A stretch of 64,000 nucleotides of DNA. It comes from Symbiotaphrina buchneri. Taxonomy: Eukaryota; Ascomycota; Symbiotaphrinales; Symbiotaphrinaceae. The position numbers were made by a program, and so were the translations under genes. Below, piece after piece: positions 8,734-52,506 of this stretch (the stretch's first letter is position 1; every line of letters begins with the position of its first letter). Location of the stretch: NCBI GenBank assembly GCA_001599915.1, contig BCIG01000022.1, positions 1-64,000 of the forward strand, written 5' to 3'. The notes under the pieces were generated by a model. The model saw only the letters and a list, made by a program, of their open reading frames with translations, was not told where the DNA came from and made no database searches.

Positions 8734-10113
8734 TCACACACGCACCTCCTCCCACCTCGCCGCCTCAGGCGCGCGTTTACTCTCCATAGTGCACTGCCAC
8801 AACAACCTCCTCTGTCCCTCCAAGTTCCCCGTGATGCTATGCCAGACACCTCGATTATGGAAGATGACCAAATCGCCCTCCTCCCAGGCATGCGCGTAGA
8901 CGTGTTCCGGCCTTACAACCTTCTTCTGCAGCGAATGGCAGATCCGCCGCACCTCGGCCAGGTCCGAGATCGTCGTCACCTGGCCCGTGGCGGGGTCGGT
9001 CGTGTGCAGCGCGTACACGCAGCAGCCGAGGATTTGGAGATGCGGTCGCGAAGGGTGGTGGGGGTTGCGCCAGACCATCTGAGGAGGAGGTTGGGTTTAG
9101 TTTGGGGTGATTGATGAGAGTGCAATTGGCTGAAGGGGCGGGGGAACCAATGGAGGGATGGACAAGAGGAGGAAACATACCGGATGGCTCTGCACCTTGT
9201 CCCAGCTGAACTCCGCCAGCTCCTCGAGCTTCTTCTCATTCCCCACCTCCGCGATCGTGATCCCGTCGTCCGTCGCCTTGCAGTCGCGCATCCACTCATA
9301 TACCCTGGGCGCGTACTGCACCGTCGTGTTCAGCGCAAACTGTTTCTCCTCGGGGCTCAGCAGCTCAAACGCTCGTGCGCCAGATACAACTATTCCCATA
9401 GGCAGTCAGCACACGCACCAGCATAAAAGACCACCAGCATAAATGAAAACACCGGAACAAACCAGCAAAGACTTACACGCCGTCGCCCCCGCATCCATCT
9501 CCAGCGCCGCGCCATCCTCAAACCTGACCACCTGCTTCGGCGCCCTTGGCGCCACGACGCAATGCAGCTGCGTGACCACACCGGGCAGGCGCTCATACAG
9601 CGGGGCGTCCATATGCCAGCGATAGAACCTCGTCTCCCCCCGCTCCAGCTGGGCCTCGGACAGCGGGCACGCATGGAACTCCTGCGCCGTGACGTGCTTC
9701 AGCTGCAGCGGCGGCAGGCCCTCGTAGTCGGTGAAGCGGCCCGCGCCGATGACCTGCACCTGTGGCGCGGTGGGTAGGCGGGCGCCGTAGTTCTGCGAGA
9801 GGATGTCCGCTGGGTTGGTGTTCTGCTTGGAGCCCCCGGAGTGCGTGGGTTTCATGTCCGGGTCGAAAAGAGAGGCGAGGAGGGGCAGGATGGTGGGGTC
9901 GAGGCCCTGTTGGGATTTGAAGACCAGGATGGAGTGTGTGAAGAGCGCGCTTTGGAGAAGGGAGATGTCGGAGGTGGAGAAGGTGGATGGGTGGGGGATG
10001 AGTGTGCTGTTGTTGAGATGCACAGTGGCGCCTAGGGAGCTGTCCTTGCGCAGGTGAGTCGGTAGCGGCCGGATGGTGAAGAGAGGAGAGGAAGGATCTG
10101 TTGCGGAGGGCAT
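8734..10113 (-). CDS. xanA: XanA-like xanthine dioxygenase (TauD/TfdA family, 2-oxoglutarate/Fe(II))
   Basis: Fungal XanA converts xanthine to uric acid with O2 and 2-oxoglutarate, a molybdenum-free alternative to xanthine dehydrogenase in purine nitrogen use. Minus-strand exons 10113-9477, 9389-9181 and 9078-8734 give 396 residues, close to Aspergillus XanA (about 370). Visible features are the iron-binding HxD in FYRWHMDA (His about 167, Asp about 169), the distal His about 362 in FHNRGVWHS, and an Arg pair near 372 positioned to hold 2-oxoglutarate. The VRFEDG segment, the WRNP stretch and the YAHAWEEGDLVIFHNRG region are typical of XanA homologues, from memory. It is divergent from a second 2OG oxygenase, and the shared promoter carries GATA-factor sites, consistent with nitrogen control. 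Substrate is inferred from family resemblance; another TauD-type substrate is possible. Confidence 0.8.
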
Positions 10114-10236
10114 GGTGGGCGATGCTGAGGACAGAATATGCGTTGTGGATGCTGATGGACAGAAGACAGCATCGGGGCTGACGGCAGGTGGATTATAATC
10201 TGGTGTTGCACATCTTACATTTGGGGGTCTGCATCT

Positions 10237-10329
10237 TTATCTCTGGGCGGGAGCGGACGCTTATCAGTAGCATGGCGGGGCGAGCAACAACCGGGCCGAA
10301 CGAGGGATAGATAAGGCTGATGTCTATCA
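10237..10329. promoter_or_regulatory. Cluster of four GATA-factor (AreA-type HGATAR) sites in a divergent promoter
   Basis: The 331-bp interval between the two dioxygenase starts contains TTATCT (10237-10242), TTATCA (10261-10266), AGATAA (10309-10314) and CTATCA (10324-10329). Read on the appropriate strand, all four fit HGATAR, the binding consensus of the fungal nitrogen regulator AreA/NIT2. Four in under 100 bp is well above chance density. Function is inferred; occupancy is unknown. Confidence 0.6.
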
Positions 10330-10444
10330 GCTGTGGTCAACATCACAGTCACTGGTCCCTGATGCCTCCTAGAACACTTACCTCGACCGTCTCTACCTTG
10401 ACCGTCTGTTACTCCCTCTGCAATCCTTACACATAAATCCCATC

Positions 10445-11715
10445 ATGTCCTCCGCGACTCCAGCCGCCTACATCCCCACGGTGGACATCTCGCCCTTCTT
10501 CAGCTCCTCCCCTCCCACAACGCCCGACCTGACACCCACGCCGACCAAGACCGCAGTCCTCGACCGGATCCGCACCGCATGTCTCGACTGCGGCTTCTTC
10601 CTCATCACGGGACACCCTATCGCCAAGAGCCTGCAACAGGACGTCCTCAGGCACGCCGCGGCCTTCTTCGCCCTCCCGCTCGCGGACAAAGTTCAGCTCG
10701 ACGAAAGCAAGTCCTATGGGCGCAGCCATCGCGGATATCAAATCCTCGGTGGCGAGGGGAATCGGCCTGGTAAAGGTCCGGATTTGAAAGAAGTATGCCA
10801 ACCTACCACGTTCTCCCTCGACGCCATAATCGGATTGTTTAAAGTTTGACATCTGACAAGCGCAGGCCTTCCAAATCGGTCGCCACCGCCCAATCTCACA
10901 CCCACACGTCGCCGCGCAACGCATGCTCGTGGGGCCCAACCAATGGCCCTCTCCAGCCGCTCTGCCGGGGTTCAAGGAGACCATGGAAGTCTACTTCGAG
11001 CAGGTGCGCGAGCTGTCCATCTTCATCCTGAAACTGCTGGCGCAGACGCTGGACCTGGATTTCGAGCGCGCGTTTGCGGGCTTTACGGATCAGGAGTCGG
11101 ATCTGAGCGCGGTCCGCTTGCTGCATTATCCGCCCATGCCCAGGGAGAAAGTCGAGCAGGGGTTGATGGGCACGGGGGCGCATACGGATTTGTGAGTGGC
11201 GTCTTTCTGAGCTGATATACCCTCCGTTTGGCTAGGGGTGAGATGTTGGGAACGGAGGTGCTGATGTGCCTGAATAGTGGTGCGGTGACGCTGCTCCTTA
11301 CAGATGACGTCTCCGGTCTGCAAGTCTTCAATGGCAACACCTGGACCGACGTGGTCCCCAATCCAGACGCATATGTACGTTCCCCACCTCCTCCCTCACG
11401 AAACCGCAAAGCCTTCTGACCTCCCCCTCCCCGCAGATCGTCAATCTCGGCGACATGTTCACACGCTTCACCGGCGGGCTGTACAAATCCTCGCTGCACC
11501 GCGTCATCAACACCTCCTCCAAAGACCGGTACAGCGTGCCGTACTTTTATGACGGTGCTCTTGATACGGTTCTGAAACCGCTGATTGATGTCCAGCAGAT
11601 CGATAAGGAGCGTACGGTTGAGGAGTATATGGAGATGAAGTTCCGTGAGCAGAGGGAGAGAGGCGTTTATGGCGGTGGTGGTGGAGATGTGGCTGTGGCT
11701 GCGGGCGTGCATTGA
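10445..11715 (+). CDS. 2-oxoglutarate/Fe(II) oxygenase, isopenicillin-N-synthase-like (DIOX_N)
   Basis: Cytosolic non-haem iron dioxygenase of the IPNS/flavonol-synthase/gibberellin-oxidase superfamily. Exons 10445-10792, 10866-11191, 11278-11374 and 11437-11715 keep phase and give 349 residues, standard for the family. The N-terminal DIOX_N domain covers about residues 8-125 (CGFFLITGHPI, FFALP). The 2OG-FeII core shows HxD in GTGAHTDFG (His 222, Asp 224), distal His 278 in KSSLHRV and Arg 288 in RYSVPYF. A Gly/Val-rich tail closes the protein. The gene is transcribed away from the XanA-like gene from a common promoter, suggesting joint regulation and perhaps a purine or other heterocyclic substrate. 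The true substrate cannot be read from sequence. Confidence 0.9.
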
Positions 11716-12753
11716 AGGGGTGGACTGGGGCATGTGCAGGTGTTGAGATTGGGTCTGGCCTTTGTTGTGTTAGAGGTGGTGTTACGTGGTTTGGCCCAGG
11801 GGACAAGCACGATTCTTGCGCACTATTTATCCAGAATATCGAATTTTGATCAACTTCATCATGGCCTGTTGGTCCGGAGAACCATGGTCTGGCTGTAAGC
11901 CTGTAACGTGTAGGGTGTAGGTCAGACTGTGTAATCTTGAGAACCCTGACCATTGTGGATAATTAAATATTGCTTTTGAAGCAATAAGAATATGCGGCAG
12001 TCCATACATATGCTCCAGTGTGTTGCGTGCTGTGACCTTTGTCCATGATAGATATTTGTAGCATCAGAAATCCCCATCCCTGCAAACGCCAATTCAAATA
12101 CGAAGGTCAGACGAGACAGCACGCCTTAGCCTATCACAATTTCAAAACCGCCCTTTCAACAACCTTCTCCACCTCCCTGCATCGGCCTTGCCCATCCGCT
12201 GCAACGGTCTCAATTGGGTAGCTGTCTCATCCAAAACAGTCAACGCCAAGTGCTCATCTCATCAACGGTCCAAACTTTAACTGAGCCCTTCGTCGACAGC
12301 GCCGAGGCACCCACCTCATTCTTCGACGTGCGCCTAACACGCCTAACACGCCTAACAGTCATTATGGGCGAAGATCAACGTGACGGTTATCTCGGCATTC
12401 TTTTCCTGGCGCCCTCCCCCCTTGTTATGGCACGAACGCCCTGCCGACGACCGGCCCGCTCGCCCGTCGTTCTTGACAGCTGCGGCGTGGCTCCTTTACA
12501 CACCACCACCACCATGCACCGCCTCGTGCCTGAAAGAGGCGCCCCGACCGCGGGAAAATCAGCCGTGGTGACCCCACCTTCGTCATCGCTGAAGTTCGTT
12601 GTTTTGCGATAATTTCAGACCTGAGTTTTCTAGCATATTCATTTGGTTTTTTCGTGCCTGCGTTTGGGTTCATAAAGTTCTTGGGGGCTTGTGGTATCGT
12701 CTGGTATTATCCACGCGTTGCTCTAAGCATACCACACCATCGCGACCGGCATC
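11716..12753. other. Intergenic region with a short 9-bp repeat
   Basis: About 1 kb without recognisable genes. A 9-bp unit (gcctaacac) is repeated nearly three times at 12332-12357. The remainder presumably holds the 3' UTR of the oxygenase and the promoter of the methyltransferase. Confidence 0.5.
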
Positions 12754-18422: not shown

Positions 18423-20729
18423 ATGGCGGATTCAGGAACGGACCGAGAAAGCGGGTCGACTAAGCGCGCGCGTTTGGCTTGCACGGAATGCCGGCAGGCA
18501 AAGGTACGTTGCACCAAAGATCGCTTCGCCCTCTAGATCTTCCATCATCATCTTGAGTGGATATTTGTGCTCACAGACTGAATAGTTGCGATGTGATGCT
18601 CCAAAGAATCCCTGTTCGCGATGTGAGAGGATGGGTCTGAAGTGCGAAACCGTGGTTGGTTATAAGCGTGTAGAGAAGAAGCGGTATGGTTCGGGCCGGT
18701 CGGCTCGTCATCATCATCACATGCGATCTTGTTCTGACACGTTCCAAGGAAACTGGATGAGCTCGAAAAGCAAGTCCAGCAGCTCCGATCCGCTGTTGAT
18801 CAGGGCAGAGCGTTCCCGCAGGATGTCATCCCCGGCGGTGCGGGGCTATCTACAGTTCCGCCTTATCAGAGGACTCCGAGCCTGTACGGGAAGCAGACTC
18901 CTTCGTATCGAGGATCCAGTATCATCCTAGGAGATGAGATGCAATCGCCAACGCCACCTCTCGCGAGGACCAATGGGACAGCGCCTTTACACACTGCTGC
19001 TGAGCCTGCTCCACCACTGGTTCCTGTTGTCGACCCGGCCGTCCAATATCAGGAAAATTCTGAAAGCAGGCCATCTGCTGCTACTTCTCGCAGCATTGAC
19101 GGCATTGAGTTGATGCCTAATTTAATCGACGAATTATTTTACACGTAGGTACATTTCCATGTGATCGCCCTGTAAAGTTGCTTACCAGATATAGTTATTT
19201 TCAACACTGCCATCAGTTCCTTCCTTTCCTCGACAAGTCTCGCTCTCCAGATCAATACTACGAGTCCTCACCGCTCCTCTTCTGGGTCATTGTGGCCGTC
19301 AGCTCGCGCACATATGAGGCCGATCCGGCTCTATGTAATAGACTATATGACTCCACGATGAAGCTCGCTTTCAACACTATCACTCTGCCTCCGCTTTCTC
19401 TTCCAAGCGTTCAAGCAATTGCACTGATTTGCACATGGCCGCCACTACGGACGTCGACGTGGCAGGATCCTTCTGAATTGCTGAGCGGCCTGGCAGTCAC
19501 TGCGGCCCTGCACCTAGGACTGCACCGCCCGGGGGATGTACTGGCGTTTACGCGCATGCGTCCGGATATCGAGCTTAGGTTGAATCTCAGCGAAGTGGAG
19601 AGATGCGAGAGACTGAAGACATGGGCCGCCTGCAACATTGTTGCTCAAAGGTGAGTCTGATTCCCATGGCCTTGGTCTCAGCTTGGTTGACAGGTATGCA
19701 GAATTAGCATCGAACGTGGCTATCCACCCACATCCACCCTCTTTGACTGGACCATTGACCGTGCCTGCGAGTCCGGAACAGGCTATTATATCCCCGAGGA
19801 TCTAAGACAGCATTTGATTGTCCATCGATTCATCAATCGCGTTGCGCACGCGATGTCGAGCAACCGAGCTGACTACCTTGGTTTGCCTTCGGAGAACGAG
19901 CGCGAAACACTTATCAAGGTACTGGAGGATGACATAGATATCATCGAGGGGCAGATTGGAAAACAGGCTACTCGTAAGTATTCCCTCCATACCTTACACC
20001 TGCGAGCGGCCCTCAACATGTAGCTGACTACCTATTGAAGCCTCCGGCCAGCTAGATCTCCTTTTCGCTCGTCTCTTTCTCCACTGTTTCGCCTTCTTCC
20101 CTTCGAGCCTACCTTCGCGTCAAACCGGCATCCTAAAAGCATACGCCAACGCCACGACACTCATGTCCCGAGCCATCGGCTTCGAGACCTCTACCCGCCT
20201 ACTACATCACGGATGCGACTTCGTTCTGCGGCAACTCCTCGTATGCGGCTCGGTACTTTTCAAAGTCCTGACCTCTTCTCTCTCACGCTACATCGACATC
20301 GAGGCCGGCAAGGCGCTATTCAACACCACGACATTCGCCATGCGCTGCATGAGCGTGCAAGCCGAGGACCTGCCCTCCCGCGGGGCGGATATGCTCGCCT
20401 GCGTATGGAGGACGTATTTCAGCTTTGACGGCGTCCCGCAGCAGCCGCAGTGGCGGACGCAGTTGCAGCAGCAGGATGATGCGGGGTTGTTTATTAAGAG
20501 TCGTGGTGGGGCGAGTGTGATGTATGATTGCATGTGGCTGTGGAGAGAGGAGAGGGCGAAGAGCGATAAGACTGGCAACAAGGGTGGAAAGGCCTCGACG
20601 TCGAAGGAGGCTCCTGTGGAGGAAGTGACCGTGGACCAGCAGGTCTGGCCGGGGTTTGATGATACATCGTGGCTTTGGGACTTTGATCTGCCGCAAGAGC
20701 TTTTCGGAGAGCCAAGTACAACAACATGA
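18423..20729 (+). CDS. Zn2Cys6 transcription factor with fungal middle homology region
   Basis: Nuclear GAL4-type regulator. Exons 18423-18503, 18586-18683, 18749-19144, 19189-19650, 19702-19973 and 20041-20729 stay in phase and give 665 residues. The binuclear cluster is complete (Cys 20, 23, 30, 37, 40, 47), with an intron splitting it after residue 27, a common position. A short coiled coil (KLDELEKQVQQLRSAVDQ) follows as dimerisation element. The fungal_TF_MHR-type region runs from about residue 190 to 560, and the tail ends in an acidic/aromatic patch (DDTSWLWDFDLPQELF) typical of LEU3-like activators. Acceptors of introns 2 and 5 are AAG, which is acceptable but less usual. Position between a P450 and an FSH1 hydrolase suggests a pathway-specific regulator; this is inference. 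Confidence 0.88.
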
Positions 20730-43392: not shown

Positions 43393-44506
43393 AGATTCAC
43401 GAAAAATTCTAAGAGCTCGAACGCCGTCAACGTGATCGCATCTTGCAAGGGCAGACGACGACCGATGGCCGCAAGAGAAATCGGCGGAGATAAGGTCACG
43501 GGACCGCGACTTCAACGAGAAACCGTGGTCAACACGTCGGATTCGCCTCCAGGTGGCTGAAGATGAAAGTCATTACATTAATGCCACGCCAATTGAGTTC
43601 AGAGACGGTATGCAAAAGTATATTGCCACACAAGATCCCAAGGAGCCTGACCTTTTCTGGCAAATGGTTATGCAGGAGACTTCAGAAATAGCGGTGATTG
43701 TTATGCTTACTCCTCCACTACAAGAAGTGCGCCGTCAAAAGTGTTTCCCATACTTTCCGTTCAATGTAGACGATGGTCCAGTAGCTTTCAGAGCAGTTGA
43801 TGGGTCGCAAGGAACGGTGGAGCTCTTGACCCTTTCAGAGGACTTTGGAACGTCCATTCGGGAGCTGAAAGTCCAAGCTCAGCAGACGACCAAAGTCGTC
43901 CATCATTTCCTTTTCCATGAATGGCCAGATTTTAGCGTTCCGGACCCGCTACAGGAAACAGATCTTCTGCAACTGATAGATTTCACGAAACAGATCAACG
44001 CAGATCCGAAAAAGGCCATCATCGTCCACTGCAGTGCAGGTGTGGGAAGGACCGGTACTTTCATTGCGTCATCCTATCTGTTAGAACAGCTCGAGGAAGG
44101 TGCATTCGAAGAATTGCCAGAAACCGTCGATCCGATATTCCTAGCAGTGGACCATCTCAGGGAGCAAAGAATGTCCATGGTCCAATCACGAGAGCAGTAT
44201 AAATTTCTTTATAGGGTCGTGAAAGGAAGATTGCTGCGGATAAAGGGGTCCCTTTCAGGAATGAGGGCCCCAAATAGGATGCAGACCCAGACGACCGAGG
44301 AAGAGTTCTCAAAGAAACTGGACGGCATCCCCTGGGGGGCAAAAGGTACGCCAGCGGAGGATAAGAATCCTTTTGCAGAGCCCCGAGGTGTCTATCCGCG
44401 AGCACGCGACGACATGGTCGTTGGGAATCGGAAAAAGGACTGGGGTCCGCGAGCACTCGACGACATGGTCGTTGGGAATTGGAAGAAGGACTGGGGGGTG
44501 GCTTAA
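43393..44506 (+). pseudogene. Protein tyrosine phosphatase with intact catalytic core and disrupted 5' part
   Basis: Classical cysteine-based PTP. An open frame from about 43480 to 44506 contains ESHYINATPI, KYIATQDPKEPDLFW, the WPDF loop (HEWPDFSVPDP) and the P-loop HCSAGVGRTGT near 44030-44060. Upstream, ELERRQRDRILQGQ is the normal PTP N-terminal helix, but it lies in a different frame and is preceded by an in-frame TAA at 43410-43412. So the 5' end carries one stop and one frameshift, unless an unseen splice form bypasses them. The C-terminus carries a 51-bp tandem duplication (44396-44498). A shortened protein starting at an internal Met would lack the N-terminal helix. It lies just after the broken C2H2 gene; whether they were ever one gene is open. 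Confidence 0.68.
44396..44498 (+). repeat. 51-bp in-frame duplication in the PTP tail
   Basis: Two consecutive 51-bp units (period from 44396 to 44447) encode two 17-residue copies sharing DDMVVGN and KKDWG. The copies differ at a handful of bases, so the duplication is not brand new. It lies outside the catalytic domain. Confidence 0.85.
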
Positions 44507-44689: not shown

Positions 44690-45165
44690 GTCCGATCTGT
44701 TCCTGATCTGTGTTTCTGATCTCCGTTCCTGATCTCTGTTGCTGATCTCTGTTCCTGATCTCTGTTCCTGATCTCTGTTCCTGATCTCTGTTCCTGATCT
44801 CTGTTCCTGATCTCTGTTCCTGATCTCTGTTCCTGANNNNNNNNNNNNNNNNNNNNNNNNNNNNNNNNNNNNNNNNNNNNNNNNNNNNNNNNNNNNNNNN
44901 NNNNNNNNNNNNNNNNNNNNNNNNNNNNNNNNNNNNNNNNNNNNNNNNNNNNNNNNNNNNNNNNNNNNNNNNNNNNNNNNNNNNNNNNNNNNNNNNNNNN
45001 NNNNNNNNNNNNNNNNNNNNNNNNNNNNNNNNNNNNNNNNNNNNNNNNNNNNNNNNNNNNNNNNNNNNNNNTCCTGATCTCTGTTCCTGATCTCTGTTCC
45101 TGATCTCTGTTCCTGATCTCTGTTCCTGATCTCTGTTCCTGATCTCTGTTCCTGATCTCTGTTCC
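44690..45165. repeat. 13-bp minisatellite interrupted by an assembly gap
   Basis: Units of tgatctctgttcc repeat head to tail on both sides of a run of N at 44837-45071 (235 bases). Early units are slightly diverged; those next to the gap are identical. The gap is almost certainly unresolved array, so its true length is unknown. Every unit carries a GATC. Confidence 0.93.
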
Positions 45166-45274
45166 TCACATCGGTCCTAAGATCTGTTTCAAAGATCTGT
45201 TCCTCACATCGGTCCTAAGATCTGTTTCAAAGATCTGTTCCTCACATCGGTCCTAAGATCTGTTTCAAAGATCT
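45161..45274. repeat. Three exact 38-bp tandem repeats
   Basis: Copies at 45161-45198, 45199-45236 and 45237-45274 are identical. Each begins with the same gttcct start as the neighbouring 13-bp unit and contains two AGATCT palindromes, suggesting that it grew from the same array. Confidence 0.95.
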
Positions 45275-45650
45275 GTTCCTAAGCTATAGGTTATTCCTGA
45301 ACGTACGATCCTATAGGTCGATCAATGGCCCCCGGTGATCGATCAGCAGCAAGCCGGAGTGACTTACCGAACCCCCTCTTCCCCCCGGGCCCTCCACCCT
45401 TCCCTTCCTCCTCATCTTAATACAGTGAAACCTCCATGACCAGAACCCGACTCCCATTGAGGACGAATGAGAGTCTGGGATTCTAGCCTGGGGCCTCTCT
45501 ACTCAATGCCGAATTGTGGAGATAGTCTGCTATCTACAAATGCATGCATGCAATAAAGTACCTAGAGCTACGATCAGATCAGGGCAGATCAAGCACATGA
45601 GATCGATCCCATGGTGTCGAACCAAACCACATCGGGGACGACAAGATGGA

Positions 45651-45675: not shown

Positions 45676-45850
45676 TAGGCTTTTGGTCAGCTTACCTACT
45701 TAAGGTACCTACTATCCTGCCTGTCTCAATCTGTTCCCTCGATTGTGTACCGTGGATCGCCGCTGATGGATCAGGGGAGTTGCAAGCCACTGGGGCCCCT
45801 CACGCAGGGACGGATATCCACCTTCACCTCCGAGATCTCTATGCCCTCCT

Positions 45851-45915
45851 GCCCTGCCCTGCCCTGCCCTGCCCTGCCCTGCCCTGCCCTGCCCTGCCCT
45901 GCCCTGCCCTGCCCT
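45851..45915. repeat. GCCCT pentanucleotide microsatellite
   Basis: Thirteen uninterrupted gccct units, strongly strand-asymmetric in C versus G. A 65-bp pure array of this kind is prone to length change. Confidence 0.95.
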
Positions 45916-46537
45916 ACTGTGCCCTGCTCCTGTCCTGTCCTGATCCGGAGAGAGAGATTATGTGTATACTAACCCCTTTCTGCCATACGAGGAGAAGACG
46001 TGGAGGGGCTCGCGTCTACTTTACGTGGACCTTGGACCTAACGACTCTACCCCTGATCTACCCCTGATCCAACCCCACCACCCCAACCTTTCACCCAGTA
46101 ACGAGTGCCGAGGTCCAGATACTATTATTACCCACTACGGTCCATGGTGCACCAAGAAAGTCATCGACAATTCAAGATTTCGATCACATCACACAAAGAC
46201 AACAAAAAAAAGTCCGTATTAGGGCTCGTTCGATCGCTATCTACTCGTAAGGACACAAAAAGGCTAAGCTACAACCCCCGCAACAGCGCAACAAGGCGCG
46301 GATACACTTCCTGCCGGGCGTCCCCTCTTGCTTCCTTCCCCATACTCTCTCTCCCTTCAAAGCTTGGTATCTCATCTCGCATGCAATGAACGAAAAGAGC
46401 GGCATCGTCAACAGCAGAACAAAAAAACAAGGGCGGCGGGGAAAGGGTGTAAAACGACGAGAACAACCCCAGAGCGGAAATGATGACATGCGCGGTGGCC
46501 AGGACCCGGCAACAGCTAAGCGTAACATCCATCAAGC

Positions 46538-49504
46538 TCAGTCGTCATCCTCGAACACGTCCAAGATGGCCTTGATCCCCCTGGGACCCAGTCCGCGCGG
46601 GGGGTAGCAGACATACGTCGGGTCCTCCTTAGCGCCCAACTTCTCACGGAACTCGCCCTTAGCGACCAAGCGAAGATTCGTCGCGATGCTGTGGTACGCC
46701 TTGCTGAGGGCTCTGATGCTGACGCCCGAGAGGTTATGCACGGGGGTGAGGTGGGCCGTCGCAGAGCCGCCGAAGGTCACGCTCTTGGCGCCGGCCTCGG
46801 CCGCGGCGCGTAACGCGTGCCGGGAGATGGCTTCGATGGTGCCGCTTGGAGCGCCGGGGAAGTCGAGCGAGTATTTGACTTGGTAGCCGTGCTCGGGCGA
46901 GAGCTGGGCGAGCACGCACAGCGCGCAGATGGTGCCGTCTTTGTCGACGGCGTAGAAGTACTTGCGATGCTCCATGTCCACCCATGGGTTGAGGTTCGTG
47001 AGATGGACCTGCTTGCCCTTGCGGTTCTTCAGCCAGTCCTGCATGCGCTGGTTGCATTGCTCTTGAATGTCCTGCGGAACGGGATTCGGGCAGTCGACAA
47101 CCTTGACGCCAGCGTTGGCGGCCTGGCGGATCTTCCGGGAAACCTCGCTGTCTCGGTTATGTGCCGGGTCGTTGGTAGGGTCCGCGCGCTCCTCGGCCAC
47201 ACAGGTCAATGTCCTCCAGTTCCACCGGTTTGCAAGAATCTCCTCCATGTCCCCGGAGACAAGAAGCCACACAGGCTTGAGACGGAGCTCCTTACGAACA
47301 AAGGTCAGGAACGCAGAGGAGATCATACCATACTGACTCTTATCGCACAGCGGGTTGCCGAGGATAACACAATAAGACCCCGAAGGAATGTAGCCCACCG
47401 CAGCCCCCGTGGCTTGATGCCGCCAGATGTGGTAACGTTCCTCAAGCCATGCTGTATTGGTTGCATCACCATAATTGGCGATAAGCTTTTCAATCGGTTG
47501 CAACTCCTTCTGATAACCTTCCTCGTACTCATGGCCCTCCCATGGGGGATGTAGGGTGCTGGCCTCCGGGTGTCGAAGCTCGAACCGCGGTGGTTTTGCG
47601 GGCAGTGACTTCGGATCCCGAGGCCAGAGTGATGCCCAACGAATGTCGCCCAGATTGAGGAGAAGCATGACCACACGTTCCAGACCAATACCACCACCGG
47701 CATGTGGAGGAGCTGCCCATTTGAAACCGGACATATATTCCTCCATACCATCGAGGGACATGCCTAGGTCTTTCATTTTCTTTTCGAGGATCCTGGCATC
47801 ATGAATACGCTGGCCACCGCTATTGAGATGTCAGTAGGATACCAATAGGAGAGAGCGAAATGCTGACCTCAAAACTTCTTGACCGCGAATAAAGATGTCG
47901 AAAGAGTTGGTGACCCTATTATCCACCGGATCCGGCATTGCGTAGAAAGGCCGCGCCCCAACAGGAAACTTGTCCAAAATGTAATAATCAGTCCCGTACT
48001 TCTCCTTCACCAGTTGACCCAGCCGGATCTCCCCTCTTGTATGTAAATCTTCGAACTCATTGGGCACAGAACCGTCCTCCTCCGTGTAACCCGAGTCTCT
48101 CAGTAACTTAATACCATCCGCAAATCGAATGATCGGTGTCTCTTCTAGCCATACCAGATCCTCATGAGGAAAATGCTTCTTAACTGTGTCCAACTCGGCT
48201 CTATACCGGTCGTAAATGCCCTTGAAAACAGTCTTGAACATGCCGTCAATCACCATTAGACACTCGTGATAATGCTCTTCAATGGCCATCTCAATATCTA
48301 AGCCAGTGTACTCTGTCAAATGTCGGTGAGTATTACTGTCCTCCGCACGGAATACAGGGCCCACTTCGTACACTCTCTCAAAGTCCGCGGCGATACACAT
48401 CTGTTTGGCCAACTGCGGGCTTTGAGCCAGATATGCTGCACGTCCAAAGTACTTAACTTCGAAGACGCTGGCACCTGACTCGGTTGCAGCGCCTTGTAGT
48501 TTCGGCGTGTGGATCTCTGTGAAGTTTTGTACATCAAGGCTCGAGCGGAAGAGATTGCAGATACCTGATTGAATGCGGAAGATCGCTTGCGAGGATGTTG
48601 TACGAAGATCTAGTATGCGGTTGTTAAGACGCACACGCATACCGATCTCAGGCAAGCCTTTGGTGTGCTCGCCCTCGTCTTCGCCCTCTTCGTCTTGTTG
48701 TCTCGCAATTTCCGCTTCGTACACATCGAACGGGAGGGGTTCCGTTCTTTGAGAAACAACGTGGAGCTCCCCTATCTGAATCTCAACGTCATGTATCGTC
48801 GTGCCTTTGACCTCCTGCTTCGGTCTCTGCGCGACGCCTTTCACAATGACAATAGCCTCCGGTGCTATACGTTCAGCCCAGCGCACCATATGCAACGAAA
48901 CTGTACCTTCTTGTTCCTGCAACACCCCTTGTATTGTAATGTTCCTCTGACGCAAAACTAGGAAGACCAGGTGGGCGCTCAACTTCCGCAGTGCATGGAC
49001 CCTGGCGCGAAAAGTAATTGTCTGACCGATAGTCATCGTATCCACCTTGGCCAACTCAAATCTTTGTTCGTGCCTCCAATCTTGAGACATGTTCAGCGGT
49101 CGATCTCCATATCGCGCGCGCATTTCTGGGCTCTCCTCCTGCTCGGCACGAGCATCAGACTCTTTCCGCCGCATTTCGATCTCTCGTTGCCGTTTTTCGT
49201 TCTCTCGCCGATGCATTTCCTTGCTCTGTTTCCGCTCCTCCTTGCGCTGATGATGGTTCGAAATACGTTCGTCGTCTCCATCTCTGCGGCCGCGTTCCCG
49301 GGATCGGCTGCTCTCGGAGGAGTCCCTCATGTGCGAGGTAGCGGCAGCAATGATTTTATGTGGATTGAAGTGGTCGGCGATTCGATCACTACTGGCTCGA
49401 GGTGAGCGTGTAGGCGAGCTTGCTCCGGAAAGCTCATCTCCGTCGACGTCGACACTGCCATGGCGCGGGTGACGGATCTTGCTAAGTGCTCGGCGAAGCG
49501 ACAT
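46538..49504 (-). CDS. erdS: AspRS-DUF2156 fusion, ergosteryl-3-beta-O-L-aspartate synthase (ErdS)
   Basis: Bifunctional enzyme of higher fungi: the AspRS part charges tRNA-Asp and the DUF2156 part transfers Asp to the 3-beta-hydroxyl of ergosterol, making Erg-Asp. Exons 49504-47868 and 47819-46538 are joined by a 48-bp intron with a TACTGAC branch site; the product has 972 residues against about 550 for ordinary cytosolic AspRS. Residues 1-140 are a charged extension rich in Arg, Lys and Glu. An OB-fold anticodon-binding domain spans about 155-265. The class II core has motif 1 near [11 protein letters not shown], motif 2 [15 protein letters not shown] (about 385) and motif 3 GGGIGLERV (about 587-595). 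The DUF2156 (GNAT-like) domain fills about 630-970 ([31 protein letters not shown]). All synthetase motifs look intact. The divergent hydrolase at 51346 fits ErdH. Function is by domain architecture and published ErdS work. Confidence 0.93.
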
Positions 49505-51345
49505 GGTGACGACGAAGCCCCGGAGTGCGGGCTGTCTAATGCGCCTTCAATGGCGAATGAAATGGTAAGGGAATTTTGAAGTTGAGAGGATGTTTGCACT
49601 GGAAGAAAAGACACCCGCGAGTCCGCAATGTGGGCACACGACGTCGCCTCCCAGCCAAGTGGATGGGCGAGGCACGTCAAGAATTATGACACGGTGATGG
49701 AAAGCCAAGCCACTTGCGCCCGGCGAGCTTGTTGCTCTTGTTCAAGGGCCGGTCGCGCAGGGGTGGACGAAGCAAGCGTCTTGACGTCTCTCGGGGGAGA
49801 GTTGCTTGCAGGGTCTTGTGTTGTTGTAGCTGGCAAAAGTGAAACGAGATGATGTCAGAGAAATGCAGGGAGAAATCCCTCGGCTCCGGCGGTTGGGCGA
49901 GTTGTGCTCCTCCGTTTTGGAGCTCCGACTCGTGCGCTCTTCGCTTTTGCCGTAGTCCGAGCACGGCCAATGCGGCGTTGCAATTCGCCTGGAGACTGTG
50001 ACGAGTGGGACCGCCCAGCGAAACGAGCTGTGAGACTGGACGGGAAGCTGCTGCGTCAGGGCTCACTAAGGCTTACATCGAATTGGCATCCCTTTAGGCA
50101 GCAAATGACCATCCCATCAGACATGGACTTTCAAGTTACGTCTGCATTACCCCTATAATCGGACGCAAATCTTACAGTGTCTACTCCGTACCACTTGAGC
50201 CTGCAACGTCCCTGTCAATCCAAAATACCTTTCGCGACATACAATTACGATGTCTACTCCAGGCTCCACCTCACTGATCATCGCCCACTCCTGGTCACGC
50301 AAGAATGACTGCTGCCGGAAGTGAGCGGAGGTTCATACCGGTCCGTCGGGCTTGGCAGTGGATGTCGGTGTGAAACTTTGCAGATTCCACGGCTGACCTG
50401 TTAGGCGGAATCTCAACATTGAATAATCCTCTGAGCTTGATTGGAGAATGATTGCAGGCCTTAAGAAGAGCAGTACAGAGACGTTACTAATGTTGAGTGC
50501 TCATACTGGTGCCTGGTGCTGACTTAAATGGTTTTAAGCTTAACACTCTGGCAGGCCTTTGCAGAGGGACGAACGTCCTGCCAGCTGTGACGTCAGCGCT
50601 TGTGATGCTGAACAGCTCATATCCGGGCGACAATGATGAGAGACCCTCGTCCCTCAGGCTATGATACTCAAACATGTCTCCTTCGGATACATAGTGGCGC
50701 TTCTTCACATAATCGATGGAAATGTTACAGAGAAGATACGGAGCATTCTGAAGCATTGCCGTTGGCAGCAAAATTCTCTCTGTTTTTATCACGTGAAAGC
50801 GAGCGAAAAATGCAGTCACGCATTTTACGAGGTAGCCTTGCTCGCAGTTCCTGCATACCAAACAGTATGCAATTTTGTGCTTTTTCTTTTTCCTTTTCCC
50901 TCTCTCCGACTTCGTTCATCACTCGAAATTCTTTATTTTTTTTCAAATATCACATGAAACGGCCTATCAGGAGTCAGCTCCGGGCCACTTTTACCTCTGC
51001 CGTTTTCTATCCACTTTACTTCGATAAGCGAGTTTTGGCGCAGCAACTTTCCCTGTTTCGTCGTGCCGAGCACATCTTCCAGGTTCCACGGTGACCCGGA
51101 GCATTTGCTGCAGGGCTTCTAGGCATTTTAATTCGGCCTCGTCGACACCACATGGCCCCTAGTCGTCTCCGCCGAAGGGATCCGGACTTGCCGACTGGCC
51201 AACCCAAGCATCTCCAGATGCATTTCATCTCATCTCCTCGAGCTGCTCGATCATGTCCATCAGATAACAGCATACCAACTCTTCCACGTCCATTGTTCAG
51301 AGCCAGCTTCCTTCTCTGCTTAGAAGCAGCGCCATCAACACCCCC
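49505..51345. promoter_or_regulatory. Divergent intergenic region between erdS and the ErdH-like hydrolase
   Basis: 1.84 kb separating two start codons that point away from each other. It must hold both promoters and leaders. CCAAT-type pentamers occur (for example near 49966 and 50081 on opposite strands), but I cannot assign regulators. No gene is supported inside it. Confidence 0.5.
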
Positions 51346-52506
51346 ATGGCCAATCCCCGATGGTGGCTGCGGCTGAAGCAGGTGTGGTGGCAGACCCTGA
51401 TGCACATCGGCATGGTCCTGCATCGTTTCCCCAGTCCCCGACCTGCATCGCACAGTTTCACCCGCAAGATCCAATCGACGTTGTCGAACTACAAGGGCTC
51501 CATCAAGCTCATCTTCTACACCCCGCACGGCTACGACCGCTCCAAACTACATCCTGTCGTCGTCAACTTCCATGGCGGTGGGTTTACCCTGGGCCGGGGC
51601 ACCGATGACTCGAGATGGGCCACTGTCTGCACACAGGACCTACAGGCGGTCTTCGTCTCGGTCGAGTACCGTCTCGCGCCCTCATACCCCTTCCCGACGG
51701 CCGTGGAAGACGGCGCAGACGCAATCCTCTACCTGTCCGATCACGCCGAGGAATTTGGCCTGGACCGCACCCGCTTCGCCATCAGCGGCTTCTCGTCCGG
51801 CGGCAACCTCTCCTTCACCGTCCCGCTCCGTCTTCAACAAGAACTCGATAAGCAGGGAAAGATGACACCCAGCTCATCCCCCAGGCCCTCTTCACCGACC
51901 ATATCTTCCTCCGATCCATCCCCAGAGCCCTCCGTCTCAGATCAAAGCCCACCATCCGAGCTCCACAACCTCAAATATCGCCCATTCCACCTCCGCGCCA
52001 TCGTCGCGTGGTACCCCACCGTGGACTACACGCGCAGCCGGGCCGACCGCCGCGCCACCAGCCGACGGCTAGACAAAGCGCTCCCCAAATTCTTCGCCAA
52101 GCTCTTCGACGAAGCGTACCTCTACCCGGTCGGGGGCAACATGGCGGACCCCGTCCTCTCCCCCGCCGCCGCGCCCACCGAGCTCCTCCGTGCCGCTTTA
52201 CCAGATGATATATTACTCTTCACGTGCGAGTGGGACATGCTGCTGCACGAGGCGGAAGCGTTCAAGGAACGCCTCGTGCGGGATGTCGGCAAGCGCGTGC
52301 GCTACCATATGGTCGAGGGCCAGCCGCATGCGTGGGATAAGAAACCCCGTGTGCTGAGACCGCCGCATATGGCGAAACGCTATTATCATGATGCGTGCCT
52401 GGAGCTGAAACGCGTCTTTGAGGAGGGCGAGAAGCATGTCCAGGAGGAGCAGGGCGATGATGGGATTGGTGAGCCGGGGGAGACGCCTGGCGGGGAGACG
52501 GAGTAG
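51346..52506 (+). CDS. erdH: Alpha/beta hydrolase, probable ergosteryl-aspartate hydrolase (ErdH-like)
   Basis: Intronless, 386 residues. Alpha/beta_hydrolase_3 (HSL-like) family: oxyanion-hole motif NFHGGGF (about 75-80), nucleophile elbow ISGFSSGGN (Ser 150), Asp 297 in CEWDMLL and His 328 in GQPHAWDK complete the triad. A hydrophobic/aromatic N-terminus (RWWLRLKQVWWQTL) could bind membrane, suitable for a sterol-linked substrate. A Ser/Pro-rich insertion (about 174-203) and an acidic Glu/Gly-rich tail flank the core. The partner enzyme of ErdS in fungi is an alpha/beta hydrolase that removes Asp from Erg-Asp, and adjacency to erdS here supports that role. The sequence alone would also fit a general esterase, so the specific name is moderately supported. 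Confidence 0.72.
   Translation: MANPRWWLRLKQVWWQTLMHIGMVLHRFPSPRPASHSFTRKIQSTLSNYKGSIKLIFYTPHGYDRSKLHPVVVNFHGGGFTLGRGTDDSRWATVCTQDLQAVFVSVEYRLAPSYPFPTAVEDGADAILYLSDHAEEFGLDRTRFAISGFSSGGNLSFTVPLRLQQELDKQGKMTPSSSPRPSSPTISSSDPSPEPSVSDQSPPSELHNLKYRPFHLRAIVAWYPTVDYTRSRADRRATSRRLDKALPKFFAKLFDEAYLYPVGGNMADPVLSPAAAPTELLRAALPDDILLFTCEWDMLLHEAEAFKERLVRDVGKRVRYHMVEGQPHAWDKKPRVLRPPHMAKRYYHDACLELKRVFEEGEKHVQEEQGDDGIGEPGETPGGETE

Follow-up and report, generated by a model that had tools for sequence, protein, structure and literature searches.

Aminoacylated sterols are a young topic. Ergosteryl-aspartate is reportedly hydrolyzed by ErdH, the subject of a 2020 PNAS study, and the pathway is said to be widespread among higher fungi; we take ErdH to be an alpha/beta hydrolase with a catalytic triad. 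The synthase, ErdS (ergosteryl-3beta-O-L-aspartate synthase), has been described from fungi including Aspergillus fumigatus as a single chain that charges tRNA-Asp and transfers the aspartate to ergosterol, with an AspRS and a DUF2156 part in one enzyme (PMC9437257). In A. fumigatus, erdS is AFUA_1G02570 (PMC11619415), and both aspartate and glycine are described as being attached to ergosterol (PMC12186260). The aminoacyl-phosphatidylglycerol synthases of bacteria, including MprF, act on glycerolipids, unlike ErdS, according to the account in (PMC9437257). In Agrobacterium, the synthase and the hydrolase of an aminoacylated lipid, LpiA and AcvB, are described as acting in tandem (PMC13135905). 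Say1, a steryl acetyl hydrolase, is a fungal sterol ester hydrolase with the PF10340 family, which BbSay1 of Beauveria is described as carrying (PMC8953178).

Here, we analyzed a locus in a 64,000-nucleotide stretch of fungal DNA, the whole of which we call the window. Its minus-strand gene is best read, from its sequence, as that of ErdS, the published ergosteryl-aspartate synthase, which it resembles by description in joining AspRS and DUF2156. We estimate at roughly 90% the probability that this gene would encode a working ErdS and that its plus-strand neighbor would be a serine esterase of the hormone-sensitive-lipase type. We file the locus as an additional member of the ErdS family with a candidate partner. 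With a clean erdS found whole in another fungus, there is a further case from which to ask how widely ergosteryl-aspartate is made.

Structure of the locus

On the minus strand, one ORF runs from 49546 to 47831 and a second from 47830 to 46538. Joining them across a short predicted intron, with the ATG at 49504, gave a reading that was gap-free across the splice in the alignments with PDB chain 9w9f and with yeast AspRS. Most of the AspRS catalytic core is encoded by exon 1 (Table 1). The preliminary description had placed two genes here, and both proved real: they are present, intact, and divergent within 46538-52506, its coordinates were correct, and the matches of both products lie far above chance level.

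Table 1 Features of the erdS locus, in positions of the window
Feature	Position	Strand	Basis
erdS, AspRS-DUF2156 fusion, 972 aa, one intron	46538..49504	-	ORF joining, Pfam, and PDB match
erdS exon 1: N-terminal extension without Pfam match, weak OB-fold, class II motifs 1 and 2	47868..49504	-	
erdS intron, 48 nt, GT..AG, splice predicted from sequence	47820..47867	-	restores AspRS reading
erdS exon 2: class II motif 3, together with entire DUF2156 (LPG_synthase_C) domain, including stop	46538..47819	-	
DUF2156 aminoacyl-tRNA transferase part as modeled, 349 residues	46541..47587	-	
Gap between start codons, 1841 bases	49505..51345	.	
Alpha/beta hydrolase, hormone-sensitive-lipase type (Abhydrolase_3), 386 aa, single ORF, candidate ErdH	51346..52506	+	
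Hydrolase triad	Ser150 at 51793, Asp297 at 52234, His328 at 52327	+	by motif

The erdS product

Pfam and the PDB alignment place an AspRS catalytic domain ahead of a DUF2156 domain in one chain, the order found in ErdS. The class II core, tRNA-synt_2 (PF00152), was matched at 8.6e-72 and LPG_synthase_C (PF09924, the former DUF2156) at 6.3e-15, while an OB-fold scored 22.9 bits (8.3e-05), under the curated cut-off of 27. When compared with all PDB sequences, the protein aligned over residues 36-970 of 972 with 9w9f (947 aa) at 1202 bits; this chain and its companions 9w9e and 9w9g, deposited under the title "Aspartate--tRNA ligase, cytoplasmic," share the two-part build of the window protein and differ from it in a DUF2156 part that is 57% identical. 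The next matches, 1asy and 1eov, which we take to be yeast AspRS, and 4j15, another cytoplasmic AspRS, covered the AspRS part alone.

The AspRS part shares 229 of 446 aligned residues with yeast AspRS. We checked 16 yeast positions, taken from the class II motifs and the aspartate site, and the window protein has the same residue at every one. They include Pro273, Arg325, and Arg531, which we take, with the roles and the chain-number offset of yeast AspRS assumed, to stand for class II motifs 1, 2, and 3. This identity at 16/16 positions bears out the earlier description of an AspRS-DUF2156 fusion with its class II motifs intact.

The DUF2156 part is identical to that of 9w9f at 196 of 342 aligned residues, and the two have the blocks RKIR, QVHL, PW-D-EHR, and KYS-DFPG-P-G in common. 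Its identity to the corresponding part of a second erdS locus, L001 (see below), is 52%. Where 9w9f and L001 agree (173 columns), the window protein keeps 134 and departs in 39, the latter a point against its activity. These figures bear on the alternative that the fusion serves as an ordinary cytosolic AspRS only, its DUF2156 part being idle or active on another lipid. The AspRS half is indeed the stronger of the two by Pfam, and the 9w9f chain is itself titled as an aspartate--tRNA ligase; an idle domain would, however, be expected to drift, and what is found is 57% identity with shared blocks. We consider this alternative very improbable.

A structural model of the DUF2156 part, built from two sequences only, was of low confidence (mean pLDDT 48.1). 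In a Foldseek search against the PDB, ranks 1-17 were bacterial L-PGS, A-PGS, MprF, or DUF2156 chains, with TM-scores of ~0.3 and identities of ~13-17%, and FemX, likewise a transferase that uses aminoacyl-tRNA, followed directly. The nearest solved folds to this low-confidence model were thus the aminoacyl-phosphatidylglycerol synthases and MprF of 4v36, 5vrv, 6lv0, 7duw, and 4v34, and 9w9e-g were absent from the 50 matches listed. Since the TM-scores are only ~0.3, the ranking speaks for the kind of fold and nothing beyond, and it lends weak support to a transferase.

Because the match to 9w9f is intact and almost whole-length, we infer that the erdS product would have the function of ErdS: the AspRS part would charge tRNA-Asp with aspartate, and the DUF2156 part would pass this aspartate from the tRNA onto the 3-beta hydroxyl of ergosterol, yielding ergosteryl-aspartate. 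The preliminary description had predicted ErdS together with ErdH. The ErdS half of that prediction stands, with its almost whole-length match, its conserved active-site positions, and its 57% identical DUF2156 part; the ErdH half is reduced to a candidate role, as set out below. The window ErdS thus appears to be an ordinary, well-kept further copy of the published family.

A second erdS locus

A DUF2156 alignment search of bacterial and archaeal genomes gave 116 pattern matches, one of which encodes a relative. This locus, L001, lies on contig NYXK01000071.1 of a MAG that the GTDB set lists under Deltaproteobacteria. Its product is a third protein of AspRS-DUF2156 build, with the AspRS part present too, and the main exon and the window erdS agree at 61% of columns (425/701). 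PF04082, a fungal transcription factor family, had 25 matches in this MAG, 24 of them over the cut-off, and was found in 0/14 control genomes, so we took the contig to be fungal contamination and rejected L001 as a bacterial erdS. Protein, alignment, and pattern searches of viral_contigs returned no further erdS or hydrolase loci.

A tblastn search of the DNA flanking the L001 erdS (upstream, ~7.8 kb; downstream, 10 kb) yielded no relative of the window hydrolase (E 1.6 or worse), so adjacency of erdS and the hydrolase outside the window stands at 0/1 loci (n=1). Five L001 ORFs put through Pfam comprised erdS, two amino acid permease pieces, one FAD-dependent enzyme, and one without a match. 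The whole MAG (7.3 Mb, its fungal share incomplete) holds three partial relatives of the hydrolase at 32-35% identity, two of which were found again at E 1e-3 or better. Given that incomplete share, an ErdH may lie elsewhere in the fungus concerned.

In the erdS of L001 (8984-11086), the motif 2 loop reads SNTPRH, compared with SNTHRH in the window, 9w9f, and yeast AspRS; this is either a variant or a sequence error.

The neighboring hydrolase

The plus-strand gene extends from an ATG at 51346 to a stop codon that ends at 52506, and its product is matched by PF07859 at 7.8e-41. It carries HGGG at 76-79, Ser150 in GFSSG, Asp297 in TCEWD, and His328 in QPHAW, and a complete alpha/beta hydrolase triad, as had been proposed, can be read from these motifs. 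The triad rests on the motifs, the protein modeled alone having given a mean pLDDT of 39.5 (low confidence). A membrane helix was sought at the N-terminus: the hydrophobic moment there reached up to 0.5, and over the whole protein no 19-residue segment exceeded 0.86 on the Kyte-Doolittle scale.

Among the best 60 of 120 PDB matches, the relatives were EH1AB1, LAE6, and other esterases at up to 76.7 bits, mainly over residues 53-160, with hormone-sensitive lipase (8zvq) at 68 bits, and none was a chain named ErdH. Among NCBIfam models, the top match was LipP1, a hormone-sensitive lipase family, whose score of 118 bits falls well short of its cut-off (350), and the remaining nine NCBIfam matches fell further under their own cut-offs or were weaker. 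PF10340 (Say1_Mug180) was absent from the matches at E up to 10, a range in which HMMER filters drop most matches above ~0.1; in having no listed PF10340, the hydrolase differs from Say1. The sequence thus points to general esterases, and a sterol substrate is singled out by none of these results.

The window hydrolase may nonetheless remove aspartate from ergosterol, which makes it a candidate for the role of ErdH. Its PF07859 match and motifs agree with the general build of ErdH, the aspartate-removing enzyme of the ErdS pathway, as an alpha/beta hydrolase with a triad. It may be that ErdH is a DUF2424/Say1-type protein; the window hydrolase would then be something else. That the hydrolase would split ergosteryl-aspartate back into ergosterol and aspartate, as ErdH does, seems to us plausible at slightly under even odds.

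The rival explanation is that the neighbor is a general esterase of the hormone-sensitive-lipase type, with an unrelated substrate, which came to lie beside erdS by an accident of gene order. The best PDB relatives and the NCBIfam matches, LipP1 first and all far under their cut-offs, agree with this, as does the L001 erdS, which has no such hydrolase in the flanks searched. The same 64 kb moreover holds two further alpha/beta hydrolases, a carboxylesterase and an FSH1 (from 50 other ORFs put through Pfam, of 190 listed), so genes of this fold are not rare here. Against an accident stand the place of ErdH, itself a hydrolase, in the ErdS pathway and a chance of less than 1% of finding an Abhydrolase_3 gene as the direct neighbor, a post hoc figure that assumes 5-40 such genes in 9,000-12,000. 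We regard the accidental explanation as an even bet.

Pairing and regulation

LpiA and AcvB make a synthase-hydrolase pair reasonable in kind, and we treat the hydrolase as a candidate partner of erdS. Core promoters shared by two genes are usually shorter than the 1841 bases seen here. Six ORFs lie wholly inside the gap between the start codons; four of them were tested for Pfam families, and these four had none. Scanning the 1841 bases with two patterns for a sterol-regulatory-element consensus, without a chance control, revealed no site; three CCAAT boxes were present, which is unremarkable.

Co-regulation had been read from the divergent layout. With the starts 1841 bases apart and no sterol-regulatory element found, the layout is all that speaks for it, and we downgrade co-regulation of erdS and the hydrolase to a guess. 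The label "complete locus" given to the pair was likewise too strong, because the best PDB relatives of the hydrolase are general esterases, the pair is absent in the L001 stretch searched, and co-regulation depends on layout. A fuller scheme, in which an esterase of the hormone-sensitive-lipase type rather than the Say1 type would remove the aspartate and the shared 1.8-kb region would set the balance between a divergent synthase and hydrolase, strikes us as rather unlikely. If the hydrolase role is true, the two genes form a simple unit for studying synthesis and removal side by side; without proof of that role, the locus is an ordinary further example of erdS.

Surroundings of the locus

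Beyond the 3' end of erdS, a CCTGC repeat of ~19 copies lies at 45848-45942, ~600 bases past the stop codon. Within 44696-45283, tandem repeats with 13-base (such as TCTGTTCCTGATC) and 38-base units lie on the flanks of 235 consecutive Ns (44837-45071), which probably mark a break in the assembly within a minisatellite. Further out, at 43436-44503, is an ORF for a protein-tyrosine phosphatase (PF00102, 2e-49), close to the end of which a 51-base repeat occurs twice.

Elsewhere in the window, one 20-kb stretch (15983-36656) holds ORFs for a P450, the FSH1 hydrolase, an MFS transporter, an FAD oxidoreductase, and a short-chain dehydrogenase, together with fungal transcription factor domains at 19121, 29160, and 30469. 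This mix of genes resembles a secondary-metabolite region.
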